From contig NC_021921.1 of NCBI RefSeq assembly GCF_000470655.1, positions 1,550,001 to 1,614,000 of the forward strand: 64,000 bases of DNA, written 5' to 3'. Below are positions 40,560-54,484 of the stretch, piece after piece. The position numbers were made by a program, and so were the translations under genes. Position 1 is the first letter of the stretch. Every line of letters starts with the position of its first letter. The notes under the pieces were generated by a model. It searched no databases. It was not told the origin of the DNA and saw nothing but the letters and a program-made list of their open reading frames with translations. The DNA is from Halorhabdus tiamatea SARL4B (GTDB taxonomy: Archaea > Halobacteriota > Halobacteria > Halobacteriales > Haloarculaceae).

Positions 40560-43500
40560 GTTTCAGACGGACCCTCGTGGGGTTGAAGCACCCGAACACA
40601 TAAGTCATTGGGTGGAATAGTATCTTGTTTCAGACGGACCCTCGTGGGGTTGAAGCATCTTGAGCAATCTCGACAAAGCCGAAATTAACGAGTTTCAGAC
40701 GGACCCTCGTGGGGTTGAAGCAATCAACTCAGTGGCATTGTATTGGCTTTTATTTGCGTTTCAGACGGACCCTCGTGGGGTTGAAGCACTCATCGCTCAT
40801 CACCCACGTATTGCCACCGGCCCCGTTTCAGACGGACCCTCGTGGGGTTGAAGCTCGACGTACTCAACTTGGCTATGGTCTATGTCAGTCGTTTCAGACG
40901 GACCCTCGTGGGGTTGAAGCATCGGTAAGGATCGTACTCGGCCGGATCCGTTTCGTGTTTCAGACGGACCCTCGTGGGGTTGAAGCATCTGACTGACCGC
41001 GCTGTTGCCGACCGCCTCGTCGAGTTTCAGACGGACCCTCGTGGGGTTGAAGCGCCTTCACCGCCAGAGAGCACGAGGATGACGCCGAGTTTCAGACGGA
41101 CCCTCGTGGGGTTGAAGCGACCGGCGTATGGTATCGCGTCGAAATTGATTGGGGAGTTTCAGACGGACCCTCGTGGGGTTGAAGCCGAGCCGTCGGTGAT
41201 GGATCAAACGGATCTCGCGAAGTTTCAGACGGACCCTCGTGGGGTTGAAGCTACTTGTTCGATGACGGGGTTATTTGCGACGACTGGTTTCAGACGGACC
41301 CTCGTGGGGTTGAAGCGCGAGGTGTCCGGCGACGGCGTGATACACCTCAAGCGTTTCAGACGGACCCTCGTGGGGTTGAAGCTGCCTGCGCACTCCTCCC
41401 CTCTTGGGAGACCGTAAGTTTCAGACGGACCCTCGTGGGGTTGAAGCCAGGTATGGGTGAAGATAAAAAGATAGATAAGGAAGGTTTCAGACGGACCCTC
41501 GTGGGGTTGAAGCCCGTCCGCCGATATGCCCATTGATCGGATAAATTCGGTTTCAGACGGACCCTCGTGGGGTTGAAGCCGGGAGAAGAACGAACACGAG
41601 ATCGCCAAGGTCCACGTTTCAGACGGACCCTCGTGGGGTTGAAGCTAAATATTTTCACTAAGATACGTATAGATAACGGGTTTCAGACGGACCCTCGTGG
41701 GGTTGAAGCGCTCTTCGCGCCACCCGTTAAAGTCTTGGTACGAAGCGTTTCAGACGGACCCTCGTGGGGTTGAAGCCTCAGGCGGTAGCTGCTCTTCGAC
41801 AGTCGACTCGGTTTCAGACGGACCCTCGTGGGGTTGAAGCGTAGGTTGTAGCTAACGACACTACGATCAACTTTTAGTTTCAGACGGACCCTCGTGGGGT
41901 TGAAGCAGCCAAAGCATGACGACCACGACACATAGCCAACGGTTTCAGACGGACCCTCGTGGGGTTGAAGCAAACTCAACGTTAATCTGGTTTAATAAAT
42001 CTATCAAGTTTCAGACGGACCCTCGTGGGGTTGAAGCGACACAATCCCCGAAGGCGACCTGTCGAAGTTGTGGGTTTCAGACGGACCCTCGTGGGGTTGA
42101 AGCGCTAACTTTTCCATTACGGACACGCCGCCGTCTTCGTGTTTCAGACGGACCCTCGTGGGGTTGAAGCCGAATTTCCCCGGTCATCCTGATAAGGGAG
42201 AATTGGTTTCAGACGGACCCTCGTGGGGTTGAAGCGACCGGGAAGCATGGGTCGAAGCTCAGGAAGAAAGGTTTCAGACGGACCCTCGTGGGGTTGAAGC
42301 CATAGGTGTTAGCCTCGGCTATTTGTACCACCGACGTTTCAGACGGACCCTCGTGGGGTTGAAGCGCTTTCCGTGCGTTTGAAGGTTTGACCCTCAAACT
42401 GGTTTCAGACGGACCCTCGTGGGGTTGAAGCAAGAACCGGAAGACGGCTATCGCCCGCTCGTACGAGTTTCAGACGGACCCTCGTGGGGTTGAAGCAACT
42501 CACCTTCGACCACATCGAGCTTCGACCATGCAGTTTCAGACGGACCCTCGTGGGGTTGAAGCCGACTGTGGAAGCCCCAGCACAGTCGTATGACCCGGTT
42601 TCAGACGGACCCTCGTGGGGTTGAAGCTTCCCGGCTGTCGCTGGACATGGTCGTTGTTTAGACGTTTCAGACGGACCCTCGTGGGGTTGAAGCCGGTGGT
42701 CCCTGAACGGATATGAACCGGCGTACCAGTTTCAGACGGACCCTCGTGGGGTTGAAGCCAGTAGTGCGATTGACGACGTGGTTAATCAGGTCGCGTTTCA
42801 GACGGACCCTCGTGGGGTTGAAGCCAGCGTCACGGTCGTTCAATACAAGCCGCGTGTTAGTTTCAGACGGACCCTCGTGGGGTTGAAGCAACAGGTGGGC
42901 TTCCAGTTCGTCCCTGATTACCGCCGGTTTCAGACGGACCCTCGTGGGGTTGAAGCCCCCATCCTTCCGCGAACTGAAGACACGGACGAACAGGTTTCAG
43001 ACGGACCCTCGTGGGGTTGAAGCCGGGCCGGGCTCCCTGCTTATCTCTACGTATGGCCCGGTTTCAGACGGACCCTCGTGGGGTTGAAGCGTCCAGAATA
43101 ATCTCATCCAGCCGGTCCTATCACGGTTTCAGACGGACCCTCGTGGGGTTGAAGCAAATTTTGCACCGCCGTAGTTATCGGGGTCGCTGCGTTTCAGACG
43201 GACCCTCGTGGGGTTGAAGCCGGTGATATGCTAATGGAACGTATCACCTTCCGCTTGTTTCAGACGGACCCTCGTGGGGTTGAAGCGGCAGTTCACCATC
43301 ACCGGCGCAGTCAAGGCCGAAGGTTTCAGACGGACCCTCGTGGGGTTGAAGCTTTCCAAGGGATGCCACCACCAGCGCCGATGTATATGGTTTCAGACGG
43401 ACCCTCGTGGGGTTGAAGCTGTGCGGAGTGTCGCCGGGCGTCGCTCGCCCACCCGGTTTCAGACGGACCCTCGTGGGGTTGAAGCGGTCGCGATGTCTTC

Positions 43501-45255
43501 GGTGTTCGTCGTCATTGTCTCGTTTCAGACGGACCCTCGTGGGGTTGAAGCCGGTCCTAAATCGGCGGCCGTGCTGTACTCCGAACCGGTTTCAGACGGA
43601 CCCTCGTGGGGTTGAAGCTCGGCCCGCGAATGCGCGTCACTATCGACGACGACCGTTTCAGACGGACCCTCGTGGGGTTGAAGCTTCGCCCCCGACGGGT
43701 GCGACCCCGTCGTCGTCGGCAGTTTCAGACGGACCCTCGTGGGGTTGAAGCCTCGCGAGTGTGGTCATCTGTGTCGGATTCGCCAGCAGTTTCAGACGGA
43801 CCCTCGTGGGGTTGAAGCAGATGGCCGAACACCTTGAGGATGTCCATCCGCGCGTTTCAGACGGACCCTCGTGGGGTTGAAGCGCTAGACAGCAGTCGAT
43901 TTGGGCTATTTTGGCTAGTAGTTTCAGACGGACCCTCGTGGGGTTGAAGCCAAAATCACCCACCGACCGACCCACCCTGTACGGTCGTTTCAGACGGACC
44001 CTCGTGGGGTTGAAGCGTGGAACCAAGCCGTCGACGTATCTGATGGAAGCAGTTTCAGACGGACCCTCGTGGGGTTGAAGCACCCCGGTCGCATCGAGGT
44101 ACGCCTGGAGCAACGGGTTTCAGACGGACCCTCGTGGGGTTGAAGCCCGGCCCGCCAGGACAGAACGACACCACCACACCCGGTTTCAGACGGACCCTCG
44201 TGGGGTTGAAGCTCAAGAAAACTGCAACCGAGATTGTAGCGAAAGCGGGTTTCAGACGGACCCTCGTGGGGTTGAAGCCTCGCGAAGTACGATGCCGAGT
44301 TTGAGGTGCCCGAGTTTCAGACGGACCCTCGTGGGGTTGAAGCCAGGCTCATGACGCGGGCGGCGGCGCGATCTACGAAGTTTCAGACGGACCCTCGTGG
44401 GGTTGAAGCCGGTACAACAGTGCCGTCTCACTCATGGACTCCAGTTTCAGACGGACCCTCGTGGGGTTGAAGCCGAGCAATTCGGGGAGGTCGGTGAGGC
44501 GTGATGTCGTTTCAGACGGACCCTCGTGGGGTTGAAGCCTCGAGCTGCTCGATCGTCTCGGCCGTGACCTTCGTGTTTCAGACGGACCCTCGTGGGGTTG
44601 AAGCGTCTTGCCGGCACAGGCGTTCAACGCCCGCCCGCGAGTTTCAGACGGACCCTCGTGGGGTTGAAGCGAGGAGCAGTACGACCCGAGCAGAGGCACC
44701 GTCCGGTTTCAGACGGACCCTCGTGGGGTTGAAGCCACAAGCTCCCGGGGCATGGCAACGACGTCGACGGGTTTCAGACGGACCCTCGTGGGGTTGAAGC
44801 GAGGACAGCGACCGCTGGGACGTCACGACGGTCGAGTTTCAGACGGACCCTCGTGGGGTTGAAGCACGGCCTCGTCGGGTTGGGACTCCGCACGCCCGTC
44901 CAGTTTCAGACGGACCCTCGTGGGGTTGAAGCTCCAGTGGGTCGTAATCGGCCTCGCCGCCCTGATCGGGTTTCAGACGGACCCTCGTGGGGTTGAAGCC
45001 ACATGATGACGCGCTCCGCCGACTCGCGCGCGATTGTTTCAGACGGACCCTCGTGGGGTTGAAGCCGGATAGGCTGGCGGTTGCCACGTCGTCGGGCGAT
45101 TGGTTTCAGACGGACCCTCGTGGGGTTGAAGCTCGGATCAGCGTTTTCAGGCTCGTTAAACACTCGCTGTTTCAGACGGACCCTCGTGGGGTTGAAGCCA
45201 CGAGTCCGCCGGTCGATCCCGAATAGACAGTAGGTTTCAGACGGACCCTCGTGGG
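40560..45255 (+). CRISPR. CRISPR array: 71 full repeats plus one truncated repeat, 71 spacers
   Basis: A 30-bp repeat beginning GTTTCAGACGGACCC and ending GTTGAAGC occurs at an average period of about 66 bp. I counted 71 full copies by eye (first 40560-40589, last full 45169-45198), all apparently identical, and a 72nd at 45234 that keeps only its first 22 nt. Spacers are about 34-39 nt. The repeat can form a short ACCC/GGGT hairpin just before the 8-nt handle GTTGAAGC, as expected for type I-B. Transcription should run from the leader beside cas2. The count may be off by one. Confidence 0.98.
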
Positions 45256-49992: not shown

Positions 49993-50670
49993 TTACGCCG
50001 TCGCGGACTCGGCGTCCTCGCGGGCTTCCCGCTCGGCTTTCTCGGCTTCTTCCTTTTTGGACTTGATCTTCTTCATCCGGAAGATCTCCTCGCGTTCCTG
50101 CTCTTCGAGTTTCTGTTCGATGTAGTCCTGGCTCTCCCTGAGGTTGGGAAGCAGGGTGAACTCCAGAGCGTTGACCCGCCGCTTCGTGGTTTCGATCTCG
50201 TCGAGGAGTTCCTTCATCGCGGTCTCGACCTCGGCGGCGAGGATGATCTGCTCTAGGAGTTCCTCGTAGGCTTCGGCGACCTCGTCGATCCGGGCGCTCG
50301 TCCCGAGGACGCCGTAGCCGCGTTCGTCCAGACTCTTGCGCACCTTCGTCGATTCGATCTGGGGGACGACGACGCCCATGATGTTCTTCGACTGGGTGGT
50401 GATCTCGGGGTGTTCCTTGAGTGCCGCGGCCGCGCCACGCACCGTGACGTCGCCCTCCATCGCGCGGGCCATGTCGATGCGATCCTGGGCGCGGTCGTAG
50501 GTCTCCTCGAGGTCCGCACGGACGTTCTGGGCCTGGTCGAGGATGTCCATGAACTCCATGATGAGGCCGTCACGCTTCTGTTCGAGCGTGTCGTGGCCCC
50601 GTTCGGAGAGTTCGATCCGGTCCTCGATCTGCATGAGGTTCTTTCGGGTCGGCTTGACGTCCTGGGCCAT
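49993..50670 (-). CDS. atpD: A-type ATP synthase subunit D
   Basis: Central-stalk subunit D of the A1 part of the archaeal ATP synthase, which turns inside the A3B3 head. It has 225 residues, nearly all coiled coil. Family features are [36 protein letters not shown] at the start and [17 protein letters not shown] in the C-terminal helix. The tail is rich in Lys/Glu/Ala. The start is ATG 50670. It normally follows atpB closely; here 3.9 kb separates them. Confidence 0.95.
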
Positions 50671-50765
50671 TACCACCCGATAACCGAGCCACTCAGTTAA
50701 CGCTTTTCAGTCTATGTGAGTTTGTGTTTGGATGCGCTACTGTCGGGGTCTCCGATGTTGAGAGC

Positions 50766-50885
50766 AGCATGAAAGCCCCGAGCCGTTCGAGTCGGGGGGC
50801 TCGTTGCGCGCTTCCCTCGCTTCGCTCGGTTCAGTGCTTACGTCGCCCGCCGTCCCCGAACGGCTCGCCCCTTTCAGTCCCACCC
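50766..50885 (+). repeat. Structured 120-nt repeat, copy A
   Basis: The copy begins AGCATGAAAGCCCC and ends CCCCTTTCAGTCCCACCC. TGAAAG (50770-50775) pairs with CTTTCA (50871-50876). A symmetric CCC/CCC internal loop follows. Then CGAGCCGTTCG (50779-50789) pairs perfectly with CGAACGGCTCG (50857-50867) around a 67-nt apical region. It is inverted relative to copy B. Confidence 0.8.
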
Positions 50886-50913
50886 AGTAATGCCAGTGAA
50901 GAAGCCGAAAAAG

Positions 50914-51033
50914 GGGTGGGACTGAAAGGGGCGGCTGGCTCCGGGAAGACGGGCGACGAAAGGACCGCAACGAACGTAGTGAGTGAGGACCGCAGCGAGC
51001 CCCTCGACCGGAGCCAGCCGGGGCTTTCATGCT
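50914..51033 (-). repeat. Structured 120-nt repeat, copy B (inverted)
   Basis: It has the same length and ends as copy A on the opposite strand. On the plus strand TGAAAG (50923-50928) pairs with CTTTCA (51024-51029), with a GGG/GGG loop, and CGGCTGGCTCCGG (50932-50944) pairs with CCGGAGCCAGCCG (51008-51020). The stem sequence differs from copy A but base pairing is kept. 28 bp separate the copies. With copy A it fills most of the 407-bp gap before atpD; I see no real gene there. Confidence 0.8.
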
Positions 51034-51077
51034 GTTCACAGTCGGGCCTGCGTACCGAAAGTCACCCACGCAATTCC

Positions 51078-52118
51078 TCACCAGAACTCTTGTTTCAGAT
51101 CGATCCAGGTGACGATCACCACGTGAGGGAGCGTCAGGACGGCGATGCCCACGAGATAGACGCCGATCGCGCCGGCAAGCCCCTCGCTCGCTGGCGTCAC
51201 GACGTACAGTGCCCACAACAGCCCGCCCGCGGCCACCGTCGTCGGCAGCGCCTCAACCGCCAGCCGACCGGCAGGCTTCAGCCACTCGCCAGCCGAAAGC
51301 GAAGACGCCGTCCGCCGATCCAGCAACCCTACCCGGACGATGTGGCGCAGGGAGTGCCACAGACAGAAGTAGATCCCCACAGCCAGGACTGGCTCGACGA
51401 GAAGGAAGAACGCCCACAACAGTGCCGTCTCGGTGGCGTCGAGTCGCCAGCCGGCCCCGTCCGCCTGCCCGTCCGCCAGCCGCCACCCGCGCCACAGCGT
51501 CAGCACGGTCACAAGTCCGAACCCCACCGCCACGGCCACCCGACCGCCGGGTTCGAACAGCCACGCCGACCCGATCGACCCGCCGAAGGGCTCGACGAAG
51601 GTTTCGAGGACGGCACGATACCGGTCGGGAAAGCCCACCAGCGGGACCGCCATCGGCAACCCGCCGCGGACCACCATCGTCAGCGCCTGCTGGGTGCGAT
51701 CCTCGAGATGGCTCCCGCCGAAGGCGTCCCGGAGGACGAACAACTCGCCCTGGCCCCAGTGGAACCACGTCAGCGCGATGAACCCCACGGCGGCCGGGAC
51801 GGGCACGACCACCCACGCCACGAGGTAGGCCCCACCCAGGACCGCATAGAGGACGCCGACGATCGCGAGTCCCCGGGCGTCGACCCGGCCGGACAGCGCT
51901 CTCGGAAGGGCCACGTAGTCCAGCGCGCCGTGGGGCAGGCCGAAGATCGCGACGCTGGCGACAAGCGGCAGGTAGCGGACGGACGCCGGCAGCGGGGCGA
52001 GGAGTGGCACGACGACGGCGAGTGCGACCAACGGCAGCCAACCGGCCCACCGGAGAAACGACCCGAGCCTGGCGGCTACCGCCCCGTCGATCCCGTCTCG
52101 GCTGGCCGTCGGGTGCAC
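51078..52118 (-). CDS. Brp/Blh-family beta-carotene 15,15'-dioxygenase
   Basis: Integral membrane oxygenase that splits beta-carotene into two retinals for rhodopsins. About 346 residues, with around eight hydrophobic segments. Conserved His-containing motifs are FGLPHGALDYV, WFHWGQGE, FCLWHSLRHIVR and LTLPHVVIVTW, which would hold the iron. GTG 52118 is preferred; a TTG at 52145 gives a longer form. No rhodopsin gene is present in the window, so its partner opsin is elsewhere. Confidence 0.9.
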   Translation of the reverse strand: MHPTASRDGIDGAVAARLGSFLRWAGWLPLVALAVVVPLLAPLPASVRYLPLVASVAIFGLPHGALDYVALPRALSGRVDARGLAIVGVLYAVLGGAYLVAWVVVPVPAAVGFIALTWFHWGQGELFVLRDAFGGSHLEDRTQQALTMVVRGGLPMAVPLVGFPDRYRAVLETFVEPFGGSIGSAWLFEPGGRVAVAVGFGLVTVLTLWRGWRLADGQADGAGWRLDATETALLWAFFLLVEPVLAVGIYFCLWHSLRHIVRVGLLDRRTASSLSAGEWLKPAGRLAVEALPTTVAAGGLLWALYVVTPASEGLAGAIGVYLVGIAVLTLPHVVIVTWIDLKQEFW

Positions 52119-52165
52119 GCGTTGGAACTGGACGGCCGGGCGCAAAACCGTTGGGTCGACACTCC

Positions 52166-52363
52166 TCAGCTATCGCCGTCCGTCCGGCGATAATAGTACT
52201 TCGAGGCGTAGAAGGTGAGGACGGCCACGACCCACGTCGCCACGACCGGCGTCGTGATGGTCCCGCTGGTCGCGAACTGGTAGCCACCGATGGCGACCAG
52301 CAGAAGGATCGTCGCGAGAAACCCGTTCCGGGCGGCGCGAACAAGTGGGTCGGCGTTGGCCAT
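52166..52363 (-). CDS. Small two-helix membrane protein, 65 aa
   Basis: A 65-residue protein starting at ATG 52363 with two hydrophobic helices (about 15-32 and 38-54) and a tail KYYYRRTDGDS. It lies 47 nt upstream of the brp gene on the same strand, so co-transcription is likely. Family and function are not recognised. Confidence 0.65.
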   Translation of the reverse strand: MANADPLVRAARNGFLATILLLVAIGGYQFATSGTITTPVVATWVVAVLTFYASKYYYRRTDGDS

Positions 52364-52712
52364 CTGTGGGGACGTTCGAACAGTGGGCACTTACTCCCTG
52401 GGATCGATTCGGTATTCACTGATCGTTCTCGACCTCTCCGTATCGATCGTCCGGTGCTGTGGAGTCGATTTGGATCACAGTCACGGCTGTCCGTATTTAT
52501 CAGCGAATCCAAATCCAATCTATCGTCTTCTCTCCACTATAATATAATAAGACATTTGTGTATTGTACTGGGATTTCTCATTTACATGTCGACGAATCGT
52601 GCAGAACCGACAATGTGGGGTCTACATAGAATTCGACCTGCTCATGCTCAACGCTCTTCTGGTATCGATAATTGGCGTCACGATTCGATGACACTCCCGT
52701 CCTTACACGAAA
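52364..52712 (+). promoter_or_regulatory. AT-rich control region of the ABC exporter
   Basis: 349 bp without a convincing gene. It contains a strong AT block near 52530-52560 (ACTATAATATAATAAG) with TATA elements, about 160 nt before the ABC ATPase start, and shows lower GC than its flanks. A 45-codon frame ending at 52723 overlaps the exporter start but has no coding character. Confidence 0.35.
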
Positions 52713-53714
52713 ATGAAAGATAGAGAACACACCGATGAGTCGGTTGCTGTCTCGGTCTCGGGGTTGACAAAGACGTACACGGGCGAGGACGGCGACGTCA
52801 TGGCAGTCGATGGTGTCTCCTTCGATATTCCGTCCGGCCAAGTCGTCGGCCTTCTCGGACCGAACGGGGCCGGAAAGACGACGACCGTCAAGGCAATTCT
52901 CGGATTGGTAACGCCGACATCCGGGACCGTATCCGTCCACGGCATTCCAGTCCACGAGGAGCGCTCGCGCGCGTACACACGGGTCAGTGCAGTTCTGGAA
53001 GGGGCTCGAAACGTCTACTGGCGGTTGACTGTTCGCGAGAACCTCGCGTTTTTCGCCGGGTTACAGGGAATCGATCCGAAGACGCGACGCGCCGAACACG
53101 ACGACATCATCGAGACGCTCGGGCTGGAAGCGAAAGCGGACGAGCCCGTGCGTAACCTCTCGCGGGGGATGAAACAAAAGGTCGCGTTCGGCTGTACGCT
53201 CGCTCGCGAGACACCGACGCTCTTTCTCGACGAGCCGATGCTCGGACTCGACGTCACCACCACCCGCGACCTCGAGACGGAGATTCGCCGTCTCGCCCGG
53301 CAAGAAGACAAGACGATCGTGCTTACGAGTCACGATATGGACGTCATTCAAGCCGTCTGTGACCGCGTTATCGTTCTCGATGGCGGCAGGGTGATCGCGG
53401 ACGACTCCGTCGAGAACCTCCTCGACGCCTTCGAAGCACAGACGTACCGCGTTCGTATCGACGGTGGCCCGGCGAAGGGGCTTCGAGAGACACTCGCCGA
53501 GCGCTTCCGGGTGTTAGATTGGGACACGGATACGGACACGACCACGTTCGAACTTGCACTCACAGACAGCGACGAGTTCTTTGCGTGTGTGAACGTTCTG
53601 GACGAGGCGAACGTCTCAGTCCAGACGTTCACCGAGATCGAACCTAATCTGGAGGACATTTTCGTCGACCTCGTTGAGACGACTGAAGCCCCACTTCTTG
53701 AGGTGCCACAATGA
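52713..53714 (+). CDS. ABC transporter ATP-binding protein
   Basis: A 333-residue ATPase of an ABC-2-type exporter. Walker A is GPNGAGKTT near residues 49-57, the signature is LSRGMKQK, and Walker B is LFLDEPMLGLD with H-loop TSHDMD. A C-terminal extension of about 100 residues is common in drug or bacteriocin exporters of this type. The stop overlaps the permease start (ATGA). The pair stands on the strand opposite to the ATP synthase genes. Confidence 0.9.
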   Translation: MKDREHTDESVAVSVSGLTKTYTGEDGDVMAVDGVSFDIPSGQVVGLLGPNGAGKTTTVKAILGLVTPTSGTVSVHGIPVHEERSRAYTRVSAVLEGARNVYWRLTVRENLAFFAGLQGIDPKTRRAEHDDIIETLGLEAKADEPVRNLSRGMKQKVAFGCTLARETPTLFLDEPMLGLDVTTTRDLETEIRRLARQEDKTIVLTSHDMDVIQAVCDRVIVLDGGRVIADDSVENLLDAFEAQTYRVRIDGGPAKGLRETLAERFRVLDWDTDTDTTTFELALTDSDEFFACVNVLDEANVSVQTFTEIEPNLEDIFVDLVETTEAPLLEVPQ

Positions 53715-54484
53715 ATCGGTATCTCGTCGTCGCAAAGGCGATTACTACCAAATCGGTCACGCTGTCCCGCCGTTACGCCGTGAATACCGCGATCAACTTC
53801 CTGACGTTGTACGTGTTCTTCGCACTCGTCTTCTTTGGCGGACGGTTCATCGCACCGGCGTTGCTCGAACAGTCGCTTGGCCCTCTCGTCGTGGGGTACT
53901 TTTTGGTCACGATGGCCGTAGCCGCGTACGCCGATCTGACACACGATTTAACTGACGAGGCACAGTGGGGGACCCTAGAGCAGTTGTCGATGTCGCCGAT
54001 CGGATTCACCTGGGTCGTCGTCATCAAGACTGTCGTCAATCTCGCCGGAACCTTCCTCATGGGTGTCGTATTGCTCGCTCTCATGATAGTGACGACCGGC
54101 GTCTCACTGTCCATTCCGCCCCTTACTATCGCTGTCGTCGGGGGCCTGACGCTCGTCCCCGTCGTCGGACTCGGGTTTCTCTTCGGTGGCGGAGCACTCC
54201 TCTTCAACCAACTCGGGAAAGTGTTCTCACTCGTGCAGTTGTCCTTTTTCGGATTGCTTGCGCTGCCTGTCCAGGACGTCCCGGCGTTGAAATTCCTTCC
54301 CCTGGCGCTTGGTAGTCACTTGCTCCGGGAAGTTACGGTGGACCGCGTCGCACTTTGGGATCTCCCGCTCGTCGATATGGGCATTCTCGGGCTTACCGCA
54401 ACGGCGTACGCCACTCTCGGTCTGATCGTATTTCGGTTTGCGGCGAGTAAAGCACGGGAACGTGGTGAACTCGGCCACTACTGA
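53711..54484 (+). CDS. ABC-2 type transporter permease
   Basis: A 257-residue membrane protein with six predicted helices, among them INFLTLYVFFALVFFGGRF near the N-terminus and LIVFRFAASKARERGELGHY at the end. It overlaps the ATPase gene by four nucleotides and should form a homodimeric exporter with it. The substrate is unknown. Confidence 0.85.
   Translation: MNRYLVVAKAITTKSVTLSRRYAVNTAINFLTLYVFFALVFFGGRFIAPALLEQSLGPLVVGYFLVTMAVAAYADLTHDLTDEAQWGTLEQLSMSPIGFTWVVVIKTVVNLAGTFLMGVVLLALMIVTTGVSLSIPPLTIAVVGGLTLVPVVGLGFLFGGGALLFNQLGKVFSLVQLSFFGLLALPVQDVPALKFLPLALGSHLLREVTVDRVALWDLPLVDMGILGLTATAYATLGLIVFRFAASKARERGELGHY

Follow-up and report, generated by a model that had tools for sequence, protein, structure and literature searches.

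What is the pair of structured repeats that lies in opposite orientation between atpD and a brp/blh gene in Halorhabdus tiamatea SARL4B, and for what is its hairpin kept? The window, that is, the whole 64,000-nucleotide stretch of contig NC_021921.1 that was analysed, had been read from its letters as carrying two repeats under selection as folded nucleic acid. The pair was taken to be possibly mobile, in view of the neighbouring break between atpB and atpD, and possibly a transcription boundary.

The repeat pair and its fold

Two repeats of about 120 nt, 28 nt apart, had been placed at 50766-50885 and 50914-51033, and copies A and B are indeed found there, head to head. Similarity runs slightly past 120 nt, with arms of 127 nt (50759-50885 and 50914-51040) that are 76% complementary, and each copy is about 122 nt long. 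Both start with GGTGGGACTGAAAGGGGC and finish with GGGGCTTTCATGCTG, each on its own strand (Table 1). On the strand starting GGGTGGGACTGAAAG, both copies have an outer stem TGAAAG/CTTTCA, a symmetric three-by-three loop GGG/GGG and an inner stem that is CGAGCCGTTCG in copy A (in the 11-13-bp range) and CGGCTGGCTCCGG in copy B. Pairing of the inner stem is perfect in each, and the common fold described in the original prediction is confirmed. Past this variable stem of 11-13 bp, short helices are separated by conserved purine-rich loops, and the overall shape is a rod. Compared with dinucleotide shuffles, the fold has z values of -3.0 to -4.2, and at most one of 200 shuffles is as good. In other double elements the spacer between the copies is a palindrome of the type GCCGGCTGACCAACCGGC.

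Table 1. Features of the repeat pair and its neighbours (positions in the window).
Feature	Position	Strand	Evidence or partner
atpD (ATP synthase subunit D), downstream neighbour	49993-50676	-	Pfam PF01813, E 4e-58
Candidate eroded IS6-type terminal inverted repeat, GTTTGTGTTTGGATGCG	50720-50736	+	11/17 positions; 45 nt from hairpin
Hairpin copy A, GGTGGGACTGAAAGGGGCGAGCCGTTCGGGG...CGAACGGCTCGGGGCTTTCATGCTG	50763-50885	- (structured strand)	Covariance model 141.6 bits, E 2e-25, own genome
Copy A outer stem, loop and inner stem, 5' side, TGAAAGGGGCGAGCCGTTCG	50857-50876	-	Partner 50770-50789
Spacer of 28 nt between divergent copies A and B	50886-50913	no strand	Divergent arrangement in 29/33 close pairs
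Hairpin copy B, GGTGGGACTGAAAGGGGCGGCTGGCTCCGGG...CCGGAGCCAGCCGGGGCTTTCATGCTG	50914-51036	+ (structured strand)	Covariance model 141.8 bits, E 2e-25, own genome
Copy B outer stem 5' arm TGAAAG and GGG of the 3x3 internal loop	50923-50931	+	Partner GGG+CTTTCA, 51021-51029
Copy B inner variable stem (13 bp), 5' arm	50932-50944	+	3' arm 51008-51020
brp/blh-type beta-carotene 15,15'-dioxygenase, upstream neighbour	51078-52145	-	Pfam PF15461, E 4e-69

A known Rfam family was considered and rejected, because no hit overlapped the repeats at the gathering threshold; only CRISPR repeats were matched in the window. These belong to a CRISPR array at 40560-45198, with 71 repeats matching Rfam CRISPR-DR24. 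All copies share the hairpin start GTGGGACTGAAAG, which looks like the 3' terminus of CRISPR repeats in haloarchaea, taken here as GTGGGATTGAAAC. This likeness may be due to chance, and the Rfam CRISPR models gave no match to the hairpins.

Selection on the folded strand

Compensatory stem changes, first noticed between copies A and B, extend through the family. In an alignment of 84 copies, standard pairs fill 96.2% of 2871 pair cells, double-sided changes occur in 29 of the 35 pairs, and the covariation score is 0.592, compared with 0.157 ± 0.007 for shuffled alignments and at most 0.049 for slid structures. In helix 2, the inner variable stem, 12 of 13 pairs have changed on both sides and 98.3% of the cells are paired. 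The fold is not a chance product, because it recurs in 84 aligned copies with covariation well above both backgrounds. As the 84-copy alignment was fitted to the covariance model, RNAalifold with a plain MAFFT alignment of 25 copies provides a more independent check; here, 28 of 35 pairs show double changes.

The mismatches reveal which strand is under selection. After removal of near-duplicates, G-T mismatches outnumber A-C mismatches in the variable stem by 55 to 9 (P = 4e-9), and by 29 to 9 at positions 1-11 alone (P = 0.0017). Without a strand preference the two would be about equally frequent, and therefore selection acts on one strand. Together with the covariation, this shows selection on the 120-nt hairpin as one folded strand, the one starting GGGTGGGACTGAAAG; that the fold and not a protein is selected had been proposed originally. 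This strand would most simply be RNA, transcribed with the site, although a role as single-stranded DNA would produce the same G-T excess. In 237 copies, the variable stems show 147 distinct arms. The opposed GGG/GGG loops do not vary in the 25 copies compared, internal-loop sequences are conserved across families, and 104 of 108 copies keep a block in which one or two other bases separate two G tracts, as judged on copies other than the scan-derived loci, since those were chosen by an exact 18-mer.

In some hairpins, the internal loops have gained small perfect palindromes in one species and not in its sister, at times on both sides of the rod (L244 vs L270, L266 vs L260, and L278).

A haloarchaeal family of IS6-type elements

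The window repeats are members of a family of small mobile DNA elements scattered across haloarchaea. By blastn, the own genome has 22 matches, and 26 of 39 relatives also have matches. A covariance model built from 25 copies gave 23 hits in the own genome (E up to 0.01), 32 and 20 hits in two congeners and 0-6 in four others, so that the further haloarchaeal copies sought by such a model do exist in numbers; within one genus, copy number ranges from 0 to >30. In a survey that scored 12 candidates per genome, and whose absences are therefore soft, the order of the own genome gave hits in 39 of the 53 genomes sampled, and the other orders of the phylum in 0 of 242. All genomes among the matches listed by an 18-mer scan of GTDB were haloarchaeal. 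The family is also present on eight haloarchaeal plasmids, where the matched stretch is unannotated in most of those inspected; the phage records and viral contigs searched gave no match to the repeat. A second hairpin subfamily, TGGTGGAATGAAAGGGCGAGCC...GGCGAGGGCTTTCA, has shorter G tracts and occurs in single-form MITEs of the genus (L245, L249, L252, L263, L285, L287, L290). The family apparently has not been described before: Rfam searches of ten other loci with E up to 1 yielded no credible hit, only a tRNA and two weak unrelated hits, and no description was found in open papers searched for the sequence or for IS6 MITEs in haloarchaea.

Many copies sit in elements bounded by terminal inverted repeats (TIRs) with the sequence GGYRGTGTTCAGATAAG or its variant TGTTTAGTTAAG; the usual distance to the hairpin is 43-47 nt, and control flanks contain no such ends. 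The same ends, 12-17 nt, flank IS240-type (PF13610) transposase genes in relatives as well as hairpin elements. Among 45 elements with two TIRs, an 8-bp target duplication is identical in 11 and matches at 7 of 8 bases in 6, compared with 0 of 117 controls without good ends that reach 7 or more of 8 flanking bases. The hairpin elements are short and carry no transposase gene. The single form is mostly 209-219 bp (around 216 bp). The basic double form is 307-308 bp, with longer ones also existing, and, as seen elsewhere in the genus, consists in order of a TIR (17 bp), a short arm, a hairpin (-), a 28-bp palindromic spacer, a hairpin (+), a short arm and a TIR. In its ends, its duplication and its size, the whole repeat family fits a non-autonomous MITE of the IS6 (IS240) family. 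When IS6 loci were searched for a transposase-bearing element that contains the hairpin, none was found; the sole IS6 locus with a hairpin, L204, has it about 1.3 kb outside the IS6 element. One IS6-type MITE of the own genome (L061, from 1497) has lost the hairpin core and kept both ends.

In other haloarchaeal families, the hairpin forms the 3' part of a longer two-domain element of about 220-300 nt without IS6 ends, with the layout GCGGTGGCGCG...GGCTGGGGAGG...hairpin. Elements of the form GCGGTGGCGCG...GGCTGGGGAGGYGTGAGG... ending in the hairpin were found at L297-L313, L006-L008, L016, L019 and L020. Their outer stem shows a compensatory change, CTCAAAG/CTTTGG, and local tandem repeats of the 3' end are often present. 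Since the hairpin occurs both in IS6-type MITEs and in this two-domain element, it is a module that has more than one type of carrier. Downstream of the hairpin, tandem repeats particular to the locus and about 50-65 nt long iterate the 3' arm GGCTGGGGCTTTGG and adjoining sequence (L302-L305, L309, L311, L179, L008).

At the window locus itself, the empty sites that had been suggested as a check were found: in four congeners, a short gap separates brp from the adjacent atpD and holds no repeat. The sister species G005 and G006 carry a pair there, inverted relative to the window in G005 and with one copy of a third type in G006. Because the site is occupied in these two sisters and empty in the four congeners, the insertion most likely predates the split of the three species. 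The left TIR remnant lies at the distance expected and has 6 mismatches in 17 positions. On the right, the match at this locus has 7 mismatches of 17 and is at the wrong distance, so that none is acceptable; the candidate on the right side in G005 has 5 mismatches of 17. No target duplication was found at the window locus. As the TIRs are barely recognizable and the duplication was not found, membership of the window pair rests on its hairpins, its spacer and the orthologous sites. The pair is probably an eroded double form, in which the terminal repeats would have decayed while both hairpins are intact.

The original prediction took the broken atpB-atpD junction beside the repeats as a sign of mobility. 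The break is present as sequence, with the brp/blh gene and an ABC transporter pair lying between atpB and atpD (51078-54484). However, brp beside atpD is common to all seven sampled congeners, and because four of them have this neighbourhood without the repeat, the broken junction is independent of the repeats and does not support their mobility. Mobility is supported instead by the IS6-type ends, the 8-bp duplications in the family, the empty sites in the four congeners and the rearranged pairs in the two sisters.

Possible roles of the hairpin and comparison with known systems

On balance, we consider it probable that the window pair is an old, immobile double-hairpin IS6 MITE whose hairpin is selected as a folded strand and is likely to be a cis-acting transcript element. 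The transposase of such elements would have to be supplied in trans by IS6 elements with the same ends. The hairpin would form in the RNA made when the site is transcribed, and most likely would act in cis on any transcript that crosses it, in processing, in stability or by binding protein. With the double form, a transcript entering from either side would contain one hairpin in the right orientation. A cis-acting RNA structure is favoured by likeness to the ERIC and Correia elements. By a home-made gene finder, single hairpins between same-direction genes are in sense orientation in 34 cases and antisense in 13 (P = 0.003), or 29 and 12 at a stricter cut-off. In double elements between same-direction genes, the sense copy was predicted to be the better preserved; it was so in only 9 of 18, which counts against a role that depends simply on read-through. 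In three comparisons of orthologous sites, conservation is higher in the hairpin than in its flanks (98.3 vs 72.6%, 97.2 vs 86.0% and 92.3 vs 73.3%). In the others the hairpins are no better kept than the flanks, in part because copies had been exchanged or small palindromes had entered them.

It is fairly unlikely that the hairpin acts only as single-stranded DNA, folding during replication or transfer and bound by protein as a replication, recombination or transposition site with no RNA involved. Any one-strand fold would give the excess of G-T over A-C, the elements are mobile, and double elements have been inverted or exchanged between species. However, IS6-type elements move as double-stranded DNA through their TIRs with DDE transposases; the hairpin is not needed for such movement, and the core-deleted L061 still has both ends. 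Nor would a replication role predict that single hairpins follow the direction of the neighbouring gene. A free-standing family of trans-acting small RNA genes, captured by chance by IS6-type MITEs, would account for the conservation of internal-loop sequences across families and for a module that, in the longer element without IS6 ends, is not bound to one carrier. This account is improbable, given that inspection of the 44-nt left arm of intact elements revealed no obvious archaeal promoter, that the stems vary almost freely and that copy number differs so widely within one genus.

As strong G+C-rich hairpins in a symmetrical intergenic pair, the repeats also resemble a bidirectional transcription terminator, in line with the transcription boundary first suggested. 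This is very improbable: a position between convergent genes is seen for 3 of 26 double elements, compared with 90 of 478 control intergenic gaps, single elements show no enrichment there, the stems are not followed by a T tract, and both genes beside the pair run the same way. With no enrichment between convergent genes, the idea of a transcription boundary is not supported. Maintenance purely as a DNA palindrome, by template switching or arm-to-arm conversion with no functional selection, would be consistent with the inversion or replacement of copies at one site between species and with the extra small palindromes inserted in hairpins. It would, however, convert GGG/GGG and the other opposed non-pairing loops to pairs, and these loops are conserved; neither would it favour G-T over A-C, and we regard it as highly unlikely.

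A wider version of the favoured reading, an IS6 MITE with a cis-acting transcript hairpin, is put forward tentatively. The hairpin may be a haloarchaea-wide RNA module, spread by at least two IS6 end-types and the separate two-domain element, and domesticated under host-level selection after the ends decay. Its four conserved, unpaired G tracts (GGG-N-GGG before the outer stem and GGG/GGG inside) could form a G-quadruplex in the molar potassium of haloarchaeal cells, which would compete with the outer stem and act as a switch.

Hairpin MITEs that shape neighbouring transcripts are already known in bacteria. The present repeat would be an archaeal case, with very strong covariation, selection on one strand and a traceable transposase family. 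It occurs in most sampled haloarchaeal genomes, yet Rfam lacks it and most of the plasmid hits inspected carry no annotation for it. Each genome may hold dozens of natural replicates, in single and double forms and with empty and inverted sites. This makes it testable, in genetically tractable haloarchaea, whether the host gains from an RNA structure carried by a transposon or whether the element alone does.

ERIC elements (enterobacterial repetitive intergenic consensus) are about 127 bp in length. ERIC is a small imperfect palindrome of intergenic sites, with copies numbering from tens to hundreds (Hulton et al. 1991, cited in PMC10969869). It is MITE-like, with stable hairpin transcripts and a copy number that varies between related species (PMC10969869); it has TA termini and a 7-bp TIR (PMC2229807). 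The haloarchaeal repeat is likewise a small intergenic hairpin MITE with variable copy number, but ERIC belongs to another domain of life and differs in sequence, and the haloarchaeal element has IS6-type ends, 8-bp duplications and a double form. Membership in ERIC, compared by description, was rejected on account of the IS6-type ends and the confinement of the family to haloarchaea within the sampled phylum. In Neisseria, the Correia/NEMIS element is a MITE whose transcript hairpin is cleaved by RNase III, altering neighbouring mRNAs, and the element is reported to undergo inversion (PMC10969869, PMC2229807). It has a 24-bp TIR with TA termini (PMC2229807). RNase III cleaves it at the TIRs, whereas the haloarchaeal hairpin is an internal module distinct from them. 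CIR repeats of Caulobacter resemble the haloarchaeal double form in that a linker connects two stem-loop arms, but contain a GANTC motif, are unrelated in sequence and host, and have no IS6 ends reported (PMC2229807).

Among haloarchaea, Haloquadratum walsbyi has short transposase-free mobile repeats, namely SMR, PATE and MITE (PMC3119063). SMR-A, of about 110 bp with inverted ends (PMC3119063), is similar in size to the hairpin repeat, and the 'SwitchRepeats' of Haloquadratum lie in opposite orientation at one position in two strains (PMC3119063). SMRs have no target duplication and ends that match no transposon, and PATEs belong to IS605 (PMC3119063); by these descriptions, identity with SMR-A or PATE was rejected for a repeat with IS6-type ends and 8-bp duplications. 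Haloarchaeal elements with IS6/IS240 transposases (PF13610) share with it the GGYRGTGTTCAGATAAG or variant TGTTTAGTTAAG terminal repeats and the 8-bp target duplication, but are about 700 bp with a transposase gene, whereas the hairpin element is 0.2-0.3 kb and non-coding. A conserved internal hairpin, separate from the ends, sets this element apart from the bacterial hairpin MITEs compared.
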